This document shows positions 9,624-58,910 of a stretch of DNA of 64,000 nt, piece by piece (the stretch's first letter is position 1; each line of letters begins with the position of its first letter). The translations under genes were made by a program, and so were the position numbers. The DNA lies in contig NZ_NQKX01000006.1 in the NCBI RefSeq assembly GCF_002252635.1, forward strand, positions 124,001 to 188,000, in the 5' to 3' direction. Source of the DNA: Synechococcus sp. MW101C3. GTDB lineage: Bacteria; Cyanobacteriota; Cyanobacteriia; PCC-6307; Cyanobiaceae. The notes beneath the pieces were generated by a model that saw nothing but the letters and a program-made list of their open reading frames with translations, was not told where the DNA came from and ran no database searches.

Positions 9624-11201
9624 TCAACCTTCAAGCCTCGCCCTGTGCGGGGCTTTTTTTATGGCTGCCGCCCGACAGACGCCGCCGACCAGCGCCAGCA
9701 CCAGCAGGGGCAGTTCGCCCCAGCGCACGTAGGGGGTCCACGCCGTGCGGTGCTCCAGCGCGAACAGGCCGGTGGCGGCATGCCCGGCGGCCAGCCGCTG
9801 GCGAATCACTCCGTGGTGGTCCACCACCAGGCTCGGACCGGTGTTGGCGGCACTGGCCAGCCAGCGGCCCGTTTCGATCGCACGCAGCTGGCTGAGGGCC
9901 GCGAACTGGTGCTGCAAGAGCGGGGGATAGGGATCGAGGTTGGCTGTGGCCAGCAGCCAGCCGGCTCCGGCGCGGCTGGCGGCCGCCAGCCCCCGGCCGT
10001 CCGCCAGCTCGTAACAGATGGCCACAGCGAGCGCGCCCCCCGGCCGCTGCAACAGGCGCGAGGGCGCCCCGGGCTGCACCCCGCCCACTGCCGACAGGCC
10101 GGCCCAGCGCCACCAACGCGCCAGCGGCACCCATTCCCCAAGCGGCACCAGCCGGTGCTTGTCGAGGGCGGACACGGGCTGGAGGGAGCCCGGCGGGAAG
10201 CGCAGCACACTGCTGCGCAGCTCTTCTCCCACCTGCCGGAAGCCACCGCTGAGCACCTCCACCGGCCCCGTTGCCGGCAGGTGTTGCCCCAGGGCGAGAG
10301 CCCCCTCCGGCAGCACCAGCAGATCCACCTGCCGCTGCATCGCCTCCGCCTGAGCGGCGGCCAGACGGCGGCGTAGCAGGAGTTGCTGATCGGCGTCGAA
10401 CTTGCGCCGCGTGGGAATCGCCGGCTGCAGCACCAGCACGAGCTCCCGCAGGTCTACGGCCTCGCTGTGCTGGATTGCAGTGTGCTTGGCCGGGATCTGG
10501 CTCAGTCGCTGGTCCGGTTTCTGACCAGTGCTCTGGCGCTGACCTTCCAAAACTCCCAGCTGGCTCCAGCCGATCAGGTGCAGCAGCAGGATCGAGGCCG
10601 CCAGGAGCACACCGCTGCGACGCCGCCGCTGCGGGCCGCCGGCCAGCACCCGCCAGAGACCCCAGCCGATCAACAGCTGGACCGCCGCCACCAGGCCACT
10701 GCCGCCCAGTGCCGCCAGCCCGGCCAGGGGCCGGTCGCCGGGCAGGGCCGAGGCCCCGAGCCCGATCCAGAACAGCGGCCCGGTGGCCAGCGTCACTTCC
10801 GCCAGACCCCAGAGCGCGGCCGCCAGCAAAGCCGTGCTCCAGCGACGCGGATCGAGGCGGCGCACCAGCAGGCTCCACAGCGCCACCAGGGCGGCACCGA
10901 GCACCGCCAGGGCACCCCACAGGGCAAGGCAGAGGGGCAGGCTCAGCGGTAGCGGCACCCCCACCCAGTCGAGCGGATGGAGCCAGAGCAGCCAGCGGTG
11001 GCTCACCAGCACCGCCGCCGCCCCCCACAGGGCAGCGCCAGCCGGCGTGGTCTGCCCCCACAGCGGCACCAACGCCAGCCACAGCAGGGGCGGAAAGCCC
11101 CATGGGGCGAACGTCACGCCCGCCAGCGCACCCGCCAAGACGGCGGTGAAGGGAGCCGTGAGCGGGCGCGTGGCCCAGGGCAGCGGCCGGTCATCGCCCA
11201 T
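9624..11201 (-). CDS. lnt: apolipoprotein N-acyltransferase
   Basis: Encodes about 525 residues from the ATG of MGDDRPLPW; an in-frame ATG 12 codons upstream is less likely. The N-terminal half has several hydrophobic helices (LAGALAGVTFAPWGFPPLLW is typical). The C-terminal half is a nitrilase domain with the catalytic Glu in VLPEGAL, Lys in DKHRLVPLGEW and Cys in AICYEL. Lnt transfers the third acyl chain to lipoproteins in the inner membrane. The last codons overlap the rbp terminator. The start is divergent from the phasin-like gene with a short intergenic gap, so the two promoters must be compact. Confidence 0.93.
   Translation of the reverse strand: MGDDRPLPWATRPLTAPFTAVLAGALAGVTFAPWGFPPLLWLALVPLWGQTTPAGAALWGAAAVLVSHRWLLWLHPLDWVGVPLPLSLPLCLALWGALAVLGAALVALWSLLVRRLDPRRWSTALLAAALWGLAEVTLATGPLFWIGLGASALPGDRPLAGLAALGGSGLVAAVQLLIGWGLWRVLAGGPQRRRRSGVLLAASILLLHLIGWSQLGVLEGQRQSTGQKPDQRLSQIPAKHTAIQHSEAVDLRELVLVLQPAIPTRRKFDADQQLLLRRRLAAAQAEAMQRQVDLLVLPEGALALGQHLPATGPVEVLSGGFRQVGEELRSSVLRFPPGSLQPVSALDKHRLVPLGEWVPLARWWRWAGLSAVGGVQPGAPSRLLQRPGGALAVAICYELADGRGLAAASRAGAGWLLATANLDPYPPLLQHQFAALSQLRAIETGRWLASAANTGPSLVVDHHGVIRQRLAAGHAATGLFALEHRTAWTPYVRWGELPLLVLALVGGVCRAAAIKKAPHRARLEG
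9634..9660 (+). terminator. rho-independent terminator of the RRM gene
   Basis: An 8-bp stem (AGCCTCGC pairing with GCGGGGCT, one G-U pair) with a five-base loop runs straight into an uninterrupted T-run. It lies wholly inside the last codons of lnt on the other strand, so the same DNA encodes the Lnt C-terminus and terminates rbp transcription. Confidence 0.9.
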
Positions 11202-52061: not shown

Positions 52062-53473
52062 GGTGAGGAGCCTGATGCAGAGCCCGCATCCGCCGCCAGT
52101 CGTGGTGTGGCGATGTCACCATACGGACGCAGTTGGGCGCCGCGGTAGTAGTGGCGGAGAATCTCCTGGAAGCTGCTGCCTCGCTGGGCCATAGCCAGGG
52201 CCCCCCACTGGCTCATGCCCACCCCGTGGCCGAAGCCCCGTCCCACTGCCACCAGTGTGGGGTTGCGGGGAGGTAGCAGCGGCGGCGGCGCAGGCAGCGA
52301 GAGCAGCACGCCCGTGGCCGACAACCAGGTGGACGGCGGCACCTGAGGCTCAGTGAAGCTGAAGGGGGCTGCCTCGAAACGCACCAGCGTGCTCTTCAGG
52401 CCCAGCCGGCTGCGCAGCTCCGCCCCACTCACCAGAAGCTGGCCACTGGGGCCCACCACGCGGGCCTGCCGCACCCTGCCACTGGCGGTGGTGGAGAGGA
52501 TGTCGATGCGCTGCACCCCGCCCAGTTCGGCGAAGGCGCGGGCCAGCAGCGGCGGCGGCAGTTCCTGGCGCCAGCGGCTCACCGGTGAGGCCTCATCAAA
52601 GTCGGCGACGCTCACCAGATAGGGCATCTGGCGCTGCCACAGATCGCCGCTGTTTTCGGTGGTGCCACCGGCACTGCTGTGGAACACCGCATTGATCAGG
52701 GCGTTCTGGTGGGTCAGCACCAATCCGCGGGTGCCGCGCACCGCCTCCCTGGTGGACGCGGTCTCCGCCTCCACCCCTTTGTAGACCTGGCTGCTGACGG
52801 TGGCCTTGAGGTCGAACGGCTGGTCGGGGCGGCGCTGGCGGAGGGCGTAGGTGCGCGCCGCCACGGCCTGGGCCCGCAAGGCCTCCAGGGGCCAGCTGGC
52901 GGGCATCTCGCTTCCCACCACGCTGGGAAGGTAGGTCTCGAGGGCGACCACATTGACCACCCGCAACGCGGAGGCGGCCGGGCGCACCACCAGCCGTCCC
53001 CGGTAGGCGCGGTTCTTCAGCTGCAGCACGGCGTCGCCACCGGGGGACTGGCCGGCATCGATCCACAGCTCCGCCAGGCTCAGCGATGCAGGCGCCGTGC
53101 CCAGCCCCAGGGGCGCCACCACCTCCACCCGCACGCCGCTGCCGGCAGGGCGCAGGGCAATGGCACCGCCTTCGGGGAGGCGCAGCCGTTCTCGGCCGCT
53201 GGCATCAAGCAGGCGCAGGCCGCTGGCGCCGCCCACCCGTACCTCCGCCGTCTCCAGCAGCAGCACCCGCAGGCTCGGATCGGGACTGGCGCTGGCCGTC
53301 TGGGGCACCGGCCGGATGGCCGGCTGCTGGGCATGGGCCGCTGGCAGGCCGGGCAGCATTGCCCAGGCCAGCGGCATTGCCAGGCCGGCAAGGCCAAGGC
53401 GTGGCGCCAGTGAAGGTGCAGCGGACCCACGGAAGGCCTTCGGCAGCGCCGAGCGGGCGAACATCCCAGCCAT
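52019..53473 (-). CDS. exported SpoIID/LytB-domain protein
   Basis: Encodes 484 residues. The N-terminus has a signal peptide ([21 protein letters not shown]). The SpoIID domain is marked by [43 protein letters not shown] and [19 protein letters not shown]. In Bacillus, SpoIID is a lytic transglycosylase; in cyanobacteria members are thought to act on peptidoglycan. Its 3' end overlaps nagB, so the pair may couple wall turnover with amino sugar recycling, which is an inference. Confidence 0.92.
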
Positions 53474-53565
53474 GGCGACCAGCAGCGGAGCTCACAAGGG
53501 GGTCATTGTCACGACGATCCGGGCACCGCGCCAGCCCTCCGCCGGCCAGTGATCGACGTGGCAGC

Positions 53566-54537
53566 ATGCGGCAAAGCGCAACTGGCTTGCAGGTCACTTT
53601 CCTCGGAACGAGTTCGGGCGTTCCCACCCGGGCCCGCAACGTGTCGGCCGTGGCGCTGCGGCTGCCGCAACGCGCCGAGCTGTGGCTGTTCGACTGCGGC
53701 GAAGGTACCCAGCATCAATTCCTCCGCAGTGACCTGCGGGTGTCGCAGCTGCGGCGCATCTTCATCACCCACATGCACGGCGACCACATCTTCGGGTTGC
53801 CGGGTCTGCTCGCCAGCCTGGGCATGGCTGGCAGCTGCCAGGGCATCGATCTCTACGGCCCCGACCCCCTGCGCGATTACCTCGAAGGCGTGCTGCGAAC
53901 CTCATCGACGCGCATCGGCTATCCCCTGGCCAGCCATCGGGTACGCGAGGCCGCCACTGCCGGCACGGTGCTGCTCGACGATGACGATCTGATCGTGCGC
54001 TGTGCCCCGCTCACCCATCGCATCCCCGCCTACGGCTACCGGGTGGAGCAGAAGCCCCGCCCCGGGCGCTTCGATGTGCAGCAGGCCCGTGCGCTGGGCA
54101 TCCCGCCCGGCCCCATCTACGCCGAGCTCAAGGCGGGTCGGAGCGTCACGCTCGAGGACGGGCGGATCATCCATGGAGAGCGGCTGTGCGGCCCGGCGCG
54201 GCCCGGCAGCACCTTCGTGTACTGCACCGACACCGTGTTCTGCGAAGCGGCGGTGGAGCTGGCGCGCGGCGCCGATCTGCTCGTGCACGAATCCACCTTT
54301 GCTCACGGGGAAGCGGAGATGGCGTTCCAACGGCAGCACTCCACCAGCACCATGGCGGCCCAGACGGCGGCCCTCGCCGGGGTGAAAACCCTGGCGCTCA
54401 CCCACCTGAGCCCCCGTTACGTGCAGGGCAACACGGTCACCCCCGATGATCTGCTCGACGAGGCAAGGGCGATCTTCCCGAACACGTTGGTGGCCAAGGA
54501 TTTCCTCACCCTTGAGGTCAACCCCGACGAGGGTTGA
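53566..54537 (+). CDS. rnz: ribonuclease Z
   Basis: Encodes about 323 residues from the ATG of [20 protein letters not shown]. The metallo-beta-lactamase motif HMHGDH is at residues 69-74 in [36 protein letters not shown] and [10 protein letters not shown], together with ALTHLSPRY, supply further zinc ligands. It matures the 3' ends of tRNAs. It is convergent with nothing and precedes psbV in the same direction by about 130 bases. Confidence 0.96.
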
Positions 54538-54664
54538 GGCACAGGCTGCGGGTTGGCCGGGCCGCTTGTGCCTGCAACAGTTCTTGATCCCGCCCCGGAG
54601 TGCCCTTCGCCCGTGATACAAGGTCTCAGGTGCGGTGTCCACCGCCAATTCGCCAGCTCCCTCC

Positions 54665-55186
54665 ATGGCCCTTTCCCTTCCCGCCGCCCTCCGGTCGATC
54701 GCCCGCCTTCTGCTGGTGCTGCCGCTGGGATTGCTGCTGACCTTCGGAGTCTGGGTGGCTCCTCTGCAGGCCGCCCAATGGGATGCAGAAACGCTCACGG
54801 TCAGCGGCACACCGGATGGTGGCCTGGTCACCTTCAGCGAATCGGAGATCAAGAGTGGTCGCAAGTTGTTCAACGACAGCTGCGGCACCTGTCACGCCGG
54901 CGGTGTCACCAAGACGAACTACAACGTGGGCCTCGACCCGGAAACCCTGGCCCTGGCCACCCCGCCGCGCAACTCGGTCGACTCCCTCGTTGACTACATC
55001 AAGGACCCCACCTCTTACGACGGTGAATACAGCATCGCCGACGTCCACCCGAGCATGCGCAGCAGCGATGTGTTCGTCAAAATGCGCGATCTCAGCGACG
55101 ACGACCTCCGCCTGATCGCCGGCTACATCCTGGTGGCCCCCAAGGTGAGCGGCACCCAGTGGGGTGGCGGCAAGGTTTACTTCTGA
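54665..55186 (+). CDS. psbV: photosystem II cytochrome c550
   Basis: Encodes 173 residues from the ATG of ALSLPAALRSIARLLLVL. The signal peptide is cleaved near residue 36 (PLQA). The heme is bound at CGTCH (residues 73-77), with His128 in DVHPSM as the likely sixth ligand. KTNYNVGLDPETLALATPPR and WGGGKVYF at the end are PsbV-specific. It stabilises the oxygen-evolving complex on the lumenal side of PSII. A strong terminator follows. Confidence 0.97.
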   Translation: MALSLPAALRSIARLLLVLPLGLLLTFGVWVAPLQAAQWDAETLTVSGTPDGGLVTFSESEIKSGRKLFNDSCGTCHAGGVTKTNYNVGLDPETLALATPPRNSVDSLVDYIKDPTSYDGEYSIADVHPSMRSSDVFVKMRDLSDDDLRLIAGYILVAPKVSGTQWGGGKVYF

Positions 55187-55262
55187 TCCAGGCCTCTATC
55201 CGTGCCAGGCGCACGTCTGAGCCTCGCCCACCGGCAGGCTCTACCCGCCAATCAACGCCACC

Positions 55263-55289
55263 GCCCCCTTGCCCAGGGGGCTTTTTTTT
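55263..55289 (+). terminator. rho-independent terminator of psbV
   Basis: A 7-bp stem (GCCCCCT / AGGGGGC), a five-base loop and eight T residues, about 77 bases after psbV. Confidence 0.93.
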
Positions 55290-55346
55290 GGCAGCGGTGC
55301 AGCACTACTGCAGGCAGTTCATGCGCCGCTGCTCCCGCGGCTCATC

Positions 55347-55781
55347 TCAGAGGCCTGAGAGGGAGACGGGGGGCGAGGCTGCAGGGTCGTTGGGATCCGC
55401 ACTACCGGCCGAGGCGGCAGGTGGTCGCTGGCAGGCGGGATCGAGCGAGGCGGGCTGCTTGCTGTACCACCACTCCTGGAGCGCCGGCGAGAGGCGCAGC
55501 GGAAACAGCGTGATCACGGTGCGGGTGGGGCGGGAGCCCGGCTCCAGCACCTCCACCGCATAGGAGGGGCAGCGCCGCGAGGCCAGATCGGCCACAAAGC
55601 GGCGGCCGATGCGACGCCAGCTGGGTTCCTTGCTGCGCCAGGCCAGGCGGCAGCAGGGCCAAGGCAACTCTTCCCGGTCGAACAGGCGGCAGCACGCTCC
55701 GATCACGCGGTAGCTGTACTGGCCCCCGGGGCTGCAATGTTCGCTGCCGTGGTCCTGGAGATTGTCGACCTGCACGGCCAT
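55347..55781 (-). CDS. conserved hypothetical Cys-containing protein
   Basis: Encodes about 144 residues from the ATG of AVQVDNLQDHGSEHCSPGGQ. It has six or seven cysteines in the first two thirds (SEHCSPGG, GACCRLFD, PWPCCRLAW, SRRCPSY, later DPACQ) and an aromatic tail EWWYSKQPAS, which may mark a metal site or disulfides. No signal peptide is visible. No family assigned. Its start codon abuts the ferredoxin terminator, so expression may need read-through or a promoter within the preceding 130 bases. Confidence 0.7.
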   Translation of the reverse strand: MAVQVDNLQDHGSEHCSPGGQYSYRVIGACCRLFDREELPWPCCRLAWRSKEPSWRRIGRRFVADLASRRCPSYAVEVLEPGSRPTRTVITLFPLRLSPALQEWWYSKQPASLDPACQRPPAASAGSADPNDPAASPPVSLSGL

Positions 55782-55782
55782 C

Positions 55783-55805
55783 AAAAAGCCACCCCGAAGG
55801 GTGGC
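55783..55805 (-). terminator. rho-independent terminator downstream of ferredoxin
   Basis: Read on the reverse strand: GCCACCC, a TTCG tetraloop, GGGTGGC, then TTTTT. The T-run ends one base before the ATG of the next gene, so the hairpin occupies that gene's ribosome-binding region. Confidence 0.85.
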
Positions 55806-55916
55806 AGAGAAGGAGAAAGGAAACAAGCGGGGCGCCGGATAGGGATCAGTTCCGCCTGTTGGAAGTGGAGAGCGCCCGACAGTGCGCCTGGCTGGCGGCG
55901 GGTAAGGCCCGTCGGC

Positions 55917-56216
55917 TCAATAGAGCTCTTCTTCGGCGTGGGTGGTGATGGTGACGTCGGAGGTGGGGTAGGCCACGCAGGTGAGCACGAAGCCAGCTTC
56001 GATCTGGTCGTCGTCGAGGAAGCTCTGGTCCGACTGGTCAACGGTGCCGGAGGTCAGCTTGCCGGCGCAGGTGGAGCAGGCGCCAGCGCGGCAGGAATAG
56101 GGGAGGTCAATGCCCTGCTCTTCAGCAGCATCGAGGATGTACTGATCATCGGGAACCTCGATGGTCTTGTTGAGGCCCTCGCTCTCGTTGATGAGGGTGA
56201 CCTTGTAGGAAGCCAT
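55917..56216 (-). CDS. petF: plant-type [2Fe-2S] ferredoxin
   Basis: Encodes 99 residues. Cluster ligands are Cys42, Cys47, Cys50 ([14 protein letters not shown]) and Cys80 (FVLTCVAYP). [18 protein letters not shown] and the acidic C-terminus (THAEEELY) fit the main photosynthetic ferredoxin, which carries electrons from PSI to FNR and other acceptors. It is followed by a hairpin terminator and preceded by about 145 bases containing its promoter. Confidence 0.97.
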
Positions 56217-56361
56217 GGAAGGGAAATTTGGGGCTCACAGGCTCCTGGAGGATCCGGGCCTGTAGGACCGCACCTTCCTACATCGGACAGGGGCGATGGC
56301 GGCGGTCTTGGGGTGGGAGCCCCGGAAGCGCAATCAAAGGGTGAGCACGGATAAGCGTGAT

Positions 56362-57327
56362 TTATATGACAGGAGGCTGTTGCTGGATCCTTATCACCCC
56401 CCAGCCGCCCTCGTCGGCGATCAGCTCGGCCAACCAGCCCAGGGAGGTGAGGGTGCTCTCCAGCGCCGGCGCCTGATCCACCAGCAGGCCGCTCAGGAAC
56501 CCCACGCCAGCGGGCGCAAGCACCGACGTGAATCCCACGGCCAGCTCCGCGATCACCGGCGCCAGGATGTTGCAGAGCAGGATGTCGGCCGGTTGCCCGG
56601 CCAACAGCTCGGCCAGCTCCTCCACCGAGCCCAGCGCCACCTGCATCAGCCCGTCAGGCCCTTCGCTGAAGCCGTTGAGACGGCCGTTCTCACGGGTGGC
56701 TCTCACCGCCAGCGGATCGTTGTCAGTGGCGGCCAGGGAGGCGGCATCCAGGCGCAGGGCGCCGAAGCCGAGGATGCCGCTGCCGCAGCCGAGATCAGCC
56801 ACCCGCCGGCCCGTCAGAGCGCCGCCGGCCTGCTGCGCCAGCTGATCCAGGGCCTCCAGGCAGAGACGGGTGGTGGGGTGGCTGCCGGTGCCGAAAGCAC
56901 TGCCGGGATCGATGCGGATCACCAGGCGGTGGGTCTGGTCGTCGGGCACCTCCAGCCAGGCGGGCAGGATCAGCAGCCGCTCCCCCACCGGATCAGCCTG
57001 CCAGTGCTGCTTCCAGCTGAGACTCCAGTCCTCGTCGTCCTGCAGGGCCCAGGCCAGCGGGGGCAGGGGCAGATCGAAGGTGGCCGCCAGTGGGGCCAGG
57101 GCCTCAGGTAGCCGGGCGCGTTCGCACTCAGGCCAGTCGATCGCCGGCAGCCAGGCCACGAGCTGGTGCTGGTCGGGGGTGCTGGGGTGATGGCGCACGG
57201 CCACCCGGGAGATCCCCAGACCCTGCAGCTTCCACAGCAGCGACTCCTCCAGCTCCGGCGGAGCCGCCATCTCCAGGCGCCACCAGCGGTGGTCGCTCAG
57301 CCGTGCGGCCGTCGGGTCGCCGGTCAC
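56362..57327 (-). CDS. prmA: ribosomal protein L11 methyltransferase
   Basis: Encodes 321 residues. The substrate-recognition domain at the N-terminus is followed by the SAM domain with RIDPGSAFGTGSHPTTRLCL, VADLGCGSGILGFGAL and DILLCNILAPVIAEL, all PrmA-specific. It trimethylates L11. The ATG overlaps the serA stop (ATGA), a pairing common in picocyanobacteria. Confidence 0.95.
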   Translation of the reverse strand: MTGDPTAARLSDHRWWRLEMAAPPELEESLLWKLQGLGISRVAVRHHPSTPDQHQLVAWLPAIDWPECERARLPEALAPLAATFDLPLPPLAWALQDDEDWSLSWKQHWQADPVGERLLILPAWLEVPDDQTHRLVIRIDPGSAFGTGSHPTTRLCLEALDQLAQQAGGALTGRRVADLGCGSGILGFGALRLDAASLAATDNDPLAVRATRENGRLNGFSEGPDGLMQVALGSVEELAELLAGQPADILLCNILAPVIAELAVGFTSVLAPAGVGFLSGLLVDQAPALESTLTSLGWLAELIADEGGWGVIRIQQQPPVI

Positions 57328-58910
57328 AGCGTGACCGGGTGCGCCTCCTGGATGCCGTTGATCTTGCCGATCGAGGCGAGCAGGCTTGGCGGAATGGGGT
57401 CGTCGAGGCTGAGCACCATCACCGCATCGCCGCGCACGATCCGACGGCCCACCTGCATTGAGGCGATGTTCACGTTGTGCTCGCCGAGCAGGGAGCCGAG
57501 GTGGCCGATGATGCCGGGCATGTCCCGGTGGCGGGTGAACAGCATGTGGCGGCTGGGGGCCACGTTCACCGGGAACTCATCGATCGTGGTGATGCGCAGG
57601 TCGCCATCGGCGAACACCGCCCCGGTGACGGTGTGGCTGCCCTGGGAACCGCGCGAGGTGAGCTGCAGCGAACCACCGGCGAAATCACGGCTGGAGTCGT
57701 CTTTCACTTCCAGCACGTGCAGGCCACGCCCCTTCGCCTCGAGGGAGGCGTTCACGTAGTTGATGCGGTCGCCGAGGGCGCTGGAGAGCAGCCCCTTGAG
57801 CGCGGCCACCACCAGCGGCTGGGAGGGGTGGTTGGCGAATTCGCCCTGCAGCCGCACCTCCAGCTCCTGCACCGAGCCCCCGGCCATCTGACTGAGCAGC
57901 AGGCCCAGGGTTTCGGCCAGCTGCAGGTGGGGCTTGAGTCGCTCCATCACCTCCGGGGTCATGCCGGGGATGTTCACGGCGCTGCGGGCCGGCAGGCCCA
58001 GCAGCACATCGCGGATCTGCTCGGCCACATCGATCGCCACATTTTCCTGGGCCTCTTCGGTGGAGGCGCCTAGGTGGGGCGTAAGGATCAGGCGATCGCG
58101 CACGGCCAGCAGCGGCGAATCGGGCTTCAGCGGCTCGTTCGCGTACACATCCAGCGCCGCCCCGGCGATGGTGCCGGCTTCCAGCGCAGCTGCCAGGGCG
58201 GCCTCATCCACGATGCCGCCACGGGCACAGTTCACCAGCCGGGCGGTGGGTTTCATCGAACCCAGCAGTTCGGCGTTGACCAGATTCTCCGTGTCCGGGG
58301 TGCGGGGCAGGTGCAGGCTGATGTAATCGGCTTCGGCGAACAGGGGCGCGACCGCCATCAGCCGCACCTGGAGCATCTGGGCCCGCTCGGTGGAGATGAA
58401 CGGGTCGTAGGCGAGCACCTCCATGCCGAGCGCCTTGGCCACCCGGGCCACGTGGGAGCCGATCTTGCCGAGGCCCACCACGCCGAGCTTCTTCTTGTAG
58501 AGCTCGTTGCCGACGTATTTCTTGCGGTCCCAGCCACCGGCCATGGTGCTGGCGTGGGCCTGGGGCACGTGCCGCGAGAGCGACAGCATCATGGCGAGCG
58601 CATGTTCTGCCGCGGCGATCGTGTTGCCTTCGGGCGAGTTCACCACCAGCACCCCCTGCCGGGTGGCGGCGGGCACATCCACGTTGTCGACACCGACACC
58701 GGCACGACCGATGATGCGGAGGCGTGGAGCTGCTGCGATCAGCTCGGCGGTCACCTGAGTGCCTGAGCGGATCATCAGAGCGTCGTAGTCGCCGATGATG
58801 CTGAGTAACTGGTCGGGCGGTAGGCCGGTGCGCACATCCACCTGGGCCACCTGGGAGAGGATGTCGATGCCCGTCTGATCGATGGGATCGGAAACCAGAA
58901 CCTTTGTCAT
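57324..58910 (-). CDS. serA: D-3-phosphoglycerate dehydrogenase
   Basis: Encodes 528 residues from the ATG of TKVLVSDPIDQTG; longer frames upstream are not family-like. NAD-binding GVVGLGKIGSHVA, the catalytic Arg region NCARGGIVDEAAL, the Glu in DVYANEP and the His in LTPHLGASTEEAQ are present. The C-terminus has the intervening domain and an ACT domain (FTRHRDMPGIIGHLGSLLG) for serine feedback. It begins serine synthesis. It is the first gene of the serA-prmA pair. Confidence 0.97.
   Translation of the reverse strand: MTKVLVSDPIDQTGIDILSQVAQVDVRTGLPPDQLLSIIGDYDALMIRSGTQVTAELIAAAPRLRIIGRAGVGVDNVDVPAATRQGVLVVNSPEGNTIAAAEHALAMMLSLSRHVPQAHASTMAGGWDRKKYVGNELYKKKLGVVGLGKIGSHVARVAKALGMEVLAYDPFISTERAQMLQVRLMAVAPLFAEADYISLHLPRTPDTENLVNAELLGSMKPTARLVNCARGGIVDEAALAAALEAGTIAGAALDVYANEPLKPDSPLLAVRDRLILTPHLGASTEEAQENVAIDVAEQIRDVLLGLPARSAVNIPGMTPEVMERLKPHLQLAETLGLLLSQMAGGSVQELEVRLQGEFANHPSQPLVVAALKGLLSSALGDRINYVNASLEAKGRGLHVLEVKDDSSRDFAGGSLQLTSRGSQGSHTVTGAVFADGDLRITTIDEFPVNVAPSRHMLFTRHRDMPGIIGHLGSLLGEHNVNIASMQVGRRIVRGDAVMVLSLDDPIPPSLLASIGKINGIQEAHPVTL

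Follow-up and report, generated by a model that had tools for sequence, protein, structure and literature searches.

Why should the terminator-like hairpin of a ferredoxin gene end a single base before the start codon of the next gene, and does this arrangement link the expression of the two? The question is raised by a locus of the cyanobacterium Synechococcus sp. MW101C3, within a 64,000-nucleotide stretch of its 3.03-Mb genome that we refer to as the window. On the minus strand, the genes are arranged in the order prmA, petF and a 144-aa ORF. prmA (TIGR00406) occupies positions 56362-57327, while petF (55917-56216) encodes a 99-aa plant-type 2Fe-2S ferredoxin (TIGR02008 fdx_plant, E 4.4e-53; Fer2, E 6.7e-27). 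The ORF (55347-55781), with its start codon ATG at 55781-55779, encodes a conserved cyanobacterial protein of 144 aa with no assigned function, as judged from its homologues and their pattern of variation. A cytochrome c-550-like ORF on the plus strand (54635-55186), which we take to be psbV, converges on the pair.

Between petF and the downstream gene lies the hairpin GCCACCC-TTCG-GGGTGGC (55788-55805, minus strand), detected by scan and conserved in relatives. Its stem has 7 bp, six of which are G-C, and its loop is TTCG. A T5 tract (55783-55787, minus strand), evident both by reading the sequence and in the terminator scan, follows directly, and the single G at 55782 separates its end (55783) from the ATG at 55781. 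The sequence-only reading had placed the end of the T-run one base before the ATG, and its coordinates are exact. The site combines a GC-rich hairpin with a T-run directly 3′, as expected of an intrinsic terminator, and lies inside a conserved co-directional gene pair, as expected of an internal operon terminator. A simple terminator scan returned 5 sites in 5.5 kb (two overlapping pairs) vs. 1.8 ± 1.5 in shuffled sequences; since this excess is small, the scan alone is weak evidence for a terminator, and conservation is the stronger evidence. When 181 nt were folded as a single sequence, the hairpin was present in both the MFE and centroid structures, and the stretch as a whole was no more stable than its shuffles (z 0.48).

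For the comparison across relatives, loci were taken from three overlapping sets (30 among the matches listed, 60 further places and the best 80 of 406 named matches). Removal of 20 duplicates reduced the 170 loci to 150, and removal of one more that lacks petF left 149 non-redundant loci. Among the loci collected, L042 comes from a record titled Bifidobacterium breve (CALPNT020000047.1) that carries the cyanobacterial gene pair; this record is a mislabelled or contaminated MAG. A search without any sequence requirement found a terminator-like hairpin in 140 of the 149 loci, and the 5′ arm is also conserved in sequence. Together with the T5 tract, the hairpin looks like the terminator of petF, as had been proposed from the sequence. 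The scan found no terminator in the other nine loci: six retain only a GCCAACCTC remnant with the gene pair still kept, L124 has the stem with a short T-run, L170 has the stem without a T-run, and L079 has no such hairpin at the anchor position. A stem stereotyped across the genome was considered and rejected, as the exact stem followed by TTTT occurs at only 4 places in the source genome, namely three contig ends and petF. At the contig ends (C6:34-55, i.e. L195 34-55; C1:34-55; and C15:43-64), the GCCACCC/GGGTGGC stem carries a GAAA-type loop. These copies are probably part of a repeated sequence, and pairs of such copies in certain other genomes point to a multicopy operon.

The gene pair itself is strongly conserved. 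petF lies upstream of the downstream gene, on the same strand and within 1.5 kb, in 168 of the 170 family loci, and the other two start at a contig end. Outside the family, petF was found upstream in 0 of 20 loci (1.3-2 kb upstream examined), and inspection by eye showed other hairpins 3′ of petF in those genomes. Twenty family genomes are without the downstream gene; 18 of these are also without petF at E <= 1e-25 and one has a petF fragment, leaving the nearly complete G054 as the only family genome with a full petF but without its neighbour. By this distribution, the pair is a family-level arrangement. The earlier reading had named the conservation of hairpin and of gene order among its checks, and both are conserved.

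A relative of the downstream protein (P0001) is encoded by 181 of the 201 family genomes, including 128 of the 130 that are nearly complete, and by 177 of 291 in a class sample that includes family members; its best named relatives (best 80 of 406) are in Cyanobium and Synechococcus records. The protein has no Pfam or NCBIfam match, and its AlphaFold model, of low confidence (mean pLDDT 66), has no PDB match at E <= 0.001. Across 32 sequences, 54 columns are invariant, including C30, C31, C44 and C71, and the protein has a highly conserved CCRLFDREELPWPCCRLAWRSKEPSWRR core with invariant cysteines. On the strength of this conservation, the gene downstream of petF is real, and what had been described as a Cys-containing unknown is indeed a cysteine-bearing conserved protein.

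To place its start codon, variation was compared on either side of the ATG in 41 unique sequences, all with matches beginning at that codon. On the 5′ side, variation is even across frame positions (0.59-0.61), while codons 2-13 show 0.39/0.22/0.33, lowest at the second position, and codons 14-25 show 0.07/0.11/0.33. An N-terminus of the M(A/S/T)(V/L/I)QV type follows the ATG in most of the 41 sequences. These patterns make ATG 55781 a well-supported start codon. A start further upstream, such as the in-frame TTG at -45, is unlikely given the even variation before the ATG and the 5 of 41 sequences with no in-frame upstream start; since 14 others do carry ATG or GTG in frame there and 22 have TTG only, such a start is unlikely rather than excluded. 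A start further downstream, which the sequence-only reading had recognized as fatal to its proposal, is not borne out, and in the clade where the ATG abuts the T-run it is unlikely in view of the conserved N-terminus.

How widespread is this contact between T-run and ATG? An ATG stands at the end of the T-run in 69 of the 140 hairpin loci, exactly 6 nt after the stem in 60 of them. Of the 69 ATGs, 56 open an uninterrupted reading frame into the downstream protein and 13 do not. In a weakly resolved 91-row tree of petF and the downstream protein, all 25 rows with an abutting ATG fall within one clade of 37 rows, and the label needs 9 changes. From the titles of the records, this clade would represent freshwater relatives of the marine picocyanobacteria. 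The abutting ATG is present, for example, in the culturable Synechococcus sp. SynAce01 (L085). In the rest of the family, GTG and TTG as well as ATG are seen as in-frame starts, in most cases 15-50 nt farther downstream. L116-L169 lack the abutting ATG, and most of them probably start at GTGA or TTGA. A short ORF that would lie upstream and overlap the NTGA start of many other lineages was also considered; in 57 of 77 cases its reading frame extends beyond the T-run, in others it closes within a few codons, and the candidate was rejected because the peptides are dissimilar.

The contact is also found at terminators that have nothing to do with petF. As a control in the same genomes, we used the terminator that follows the convergent cytochrome c-550-like gene; it has an ATG or GTG 0-1 nt past its T-run in 30 of 53 cases, and the window's own copy of this control (55263-55289, plus strand) is not among them. 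In a 464-kb sample of the source genome (400 kb plus the window), the same was true of 9 of 34 terminator-like sites, petF among them, vs. 39 of 571 other T-runs (p 0.0007). Elsewhere in the window, at position 9654 (plus strand), the T-run of another strong terminator runs into ATGGC. Terminators with a GCCGG stem, taken as a second sample for this habit, gave only 18 matches in 61 genomes, a number too small for a comparison. A general 3′-flank signal of terminators in these genomes is possible, and the abutting ATG may have originated from such a habit of terminators and been recruited later as a start. Among the loci compared, the contact is confined to one clade and is partly ordinary. 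These counts are what would be expected if there were no regulatory link at all, with an unrecognized promoter driving the downstream gene and one of the many ATG or GTG triplets behind terminators recruited as its start, and the 13 loci in which the ATG is out of frame or closed fit this explanation as well. We consider it unlikely, if credible, since the N-terminus after the ATG is conserved, the order of the two genes is conserved, and a promoter-like site was not found by the scan (see below).

If transcription continues past the hairpin, the stem would come to lie over the ribosome-binding region. The SD-like sequence GGGGTGG (55789-55795, minus strand), a putative SD identified by its computed duplex with the anti-SD, lies partly in the loop and partly in the 3′ arm of the hairpin. 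Over 44 loci, the computed SD:anti-SD duplex within bases -20 to -1 has a mean energy of -9.5 kcal/mol (GGGGUGG in the window) and the hairpin a mean energy of -13.8 kcal/mol, and bases -14 to -7 have a predicted probability of about 0.10 of being unpaired, i.e. they are about 90% paired. Thus, the stem would be expected to mask the SD-like GGGGUGG in read-through RNA, and the masking suggested in the earlier reading agrees with the computation for the predicted SD. Masking cannot be general in the family, since the in-frame starts outside the freshwater clade come after the hairpin.

A terminator that also buries a ribosome-binding site is the right output module for an attenuator or riboswitch, in which an antiterminator fold would sense a signal tied to ferredoxin. 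The second fold that such a device needs was not detected. The consensus structure of 22 sequences consists of the terminator hairpin alone, with no competing or second conserved fold; none of its 7 hairpin pairs shows a double change (0/7), i.e. there is no covariation in this set. Rfam 15 gave 0 matches for window positions 54500-57500 and for 11 relatives, and the 45 bases upstream of the hairpin are unconserved, save for a CTTG and, adjoining the stem, a TC. The suggestion of an attenuator or RNA switch is therefore unsupported, and we regard this explanation as most improbable; a linkage of the downstream gene to petF by read-through remains plausible from the layout of the locus.

The conservation of both the stem sequence and the upstream CTTG seems to exceed what a plain terminator requires. 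In 63 petF loci, the six loop-proximal bases of the 5′ arm have a mean pairwise identity of 0.86 and occur as 8 different 6-mers, and CCACC is found within 61 of the 63 terminators. For the matching six bases of the control terminator, the mean identity is 0.43 with 32 different 6-mers in 53 loci, a value that is too low if the hairpin differs between loci, as the control is a single terminator per locus, chosen as the hairpin with the top score within 200 nt behind the convergent cytochrome gene and found in 53 of 64 loci. It should be noted that the anchor of the alignment requires CCACC or named variants, which makes the near-invariance of the stem there partly a matter of construction; the constancy of the stem rests on the comparison with the control and not on the anchored alignment. 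Three loci without an anchor (L002, L080 and L096) were left out of that alignment, and in L080 and L096 more than 600 nt separate petF from the matched start, with no CCACC-type anchor. In the window, CTTG occupies 55824-55827 (minus strand), with its TTG at 55826-55824, and a count of offsets in the representatives places it at a fixed distance 5′ of the hairpin: TTG occurs at -22 from the CCACC point in 57 of 92 representatives, compared with a mean of 2.06 and a maximum of 5 at offsets -42 to -26. This TTG is present in 24 of the 26 AT-rich representatives, while the bases between CTTG and the hairpin are nearly all unconserved. Such a TTG is absent from the control terminators, where no offset has the triplet in more than 2 of 53. 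A regulon sharing CTTG and hairpin was sought and rejected, as CTTGN{16,20}GCCACCC has 29 matches in genome G000 vs. 34 for the reversed control, i.e. no excess; in genomes with low counts, the petF locus is often one of the few matches among those listed.

The fixed distance raises the possibility that the terminator DNA doubles as a promoter or operator of the downstream gene, with the pattern TTGnnn, 17 bp, nAnnnT. In the window, this hypothetical element (55798-55826, minus strand) would consist of TTGTTT (55826-55821), a 17-base spacer and CACCCT (55803-55798) in the left arm of the stem; its TTG and its last T are linked across relatives. The TTG, allowing ±1 in offset, tends to occur together with the T at +6, a -7-like position (60/2/8/22; Fisher p 1.4e-12 with kinship ignored), and a Pagel comparison of dependent and independent models gives an LRT of 52.2 (p 1.3e-10). 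The six loci that have lost the hairpin retain GCCAACCTC / GCCAACCT plus an upstream TTGC, and at locus L245 of G054, where petF has no downstream partner, the stem is changed and the TTG is missing, although this is one case. Transcripts starting near 55790-55794 would have no hairpin, and therefore all or most of GGGGUGG would be a free SD 7 nt before the ATG. Against this, CACCCT matches TATAAT at only 2 of 6 positions, and C replaces the first T of the -10 in all 92 representatives, AT-rich ones included (partly by construction of the anchor). The hairpin-less loci show no drift towards a better -10, and a simple scan found 0 sigma-70 consensus sites in 53000-58500. Finally, the tree is weakly resolved, and its well-supported branches yield only 7 independent pairs for the TTG and T, of which 3.1 agree and 0.0 oppose on average, which is not significant (median p 0.25). 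We thus view a promoter or operator within the terminator as rather unlikely. Its fullest form is still more doubtful, namely that one 30-bp stretch serves as the terminator of petF and the promoter/operator of the next gene, with the left arm as the -10-like half of TTG-17-CACCCT and hairpin-less transcripts starting in the 3′ arm with a free SD.

The same two elements might instead mark the 3′ end of a small RNA derived from the petF 3′UTR, or a 3′UTR element for protein binding or stability, for which a short conserved motif followed at fixed spacing by a conserved terminator hairpin would be suitable. We judge this very unlikely, as the bases from motif to hairpin vary almost freely, Rfam has no match, and the motif is absent from the genome with petF but no downstream gene (n = 1).

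Taken together, the arrangement is best explained as a passive double throttle on the downstream gene, in which the terminator and a buried ribosome-binding site act in series without a ligand switch; we assign this reading a probability of about one half. The petF intrinsic terminator would serve as an internal terminator between petF and its conserved second gene, with most petF transcripts stopping in the T-run and a minority reading through to provide mRNA for the second gene. Given how closely the ATG follows the T-run, the stem would also bury the SD-like GGGGUGG, and the read-through message would therefore be translated poorly unless the stem is opened. Such a throttle would hold the downstream protein far below ferredoxin. 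In the marine relative Synechococcus CC9605, the major ferredoxin gene is reported to outrank all other protein genes in TSS score in situ (PMC5069720), so that little read-through would suffice; in S. elongatus, read-through at U-tract ends is described as decreasing with U-content (PMC13289151). The throttle does not account for the constant stem and the CTTG: it needs neither a near-fixed 5′ arm nor a TTG at fixed distance, and the nine loci of 149 in which the scan found no terminator also argue against it.

Several known systems share portions of this design. In pT181 repC, the 3′ half of a terminator holds the ribosome-binding site of the next gene (PMC5435934), much as the stem would hold the putative SD GGGGUGG at petF, but repC is controlled by an antiterminator and an antisense RNA, whereas an antiterminator was not detected at the petF locus; the natural control of pT181 was judged there to be mainly transcriptional (PMC5435934). 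In the ABC-importer operons of cellulolytic clostridia, a leaky hairpin after a strongly expressed first gene sets the ratio of products (PMC9045158), a likeness that would extend to petF if its terminator is leaky. The clostridial hairpins have longer stems and weaker U-tracts, in contrast to a single locus with a 7-bp stem of constant sequence and an ATG abutting the T-run. The rpfB RNA switch of Mycobacterium tuberculosis likewise has an intrinsic terminator just 5′ of the start codon (PMC6009663), but it is described with its own promoter and two alternative folds backed by mutants, while the petF locus has a single conserved fold. The intrinsic terminators of Synechococcus elongatus share the hairpin and U-tract (PMC13289151); the feature reported there is a TG dinucleotide at ends without U-tracts, and not ATG or GTG after T-runs, and petF does not appear in the main text of that study. 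No description of the petF terminator and its ATG was found in the open-licence literature (supplements excluded).

The gene held behind this hairpin is nearly universal in the family and yet has no Pfam or NCBIfam match. The constant stem and the CTTG at fixed distance lead to a precise prediction about 5′ ends, and if the promoter reading were true, the same DNA would end petF and start the next gene. Whether it sets the ratio of the two products or doubles as a promoter, one such hairpin would represent a compact form of control in ecologically important cyanobacteria.
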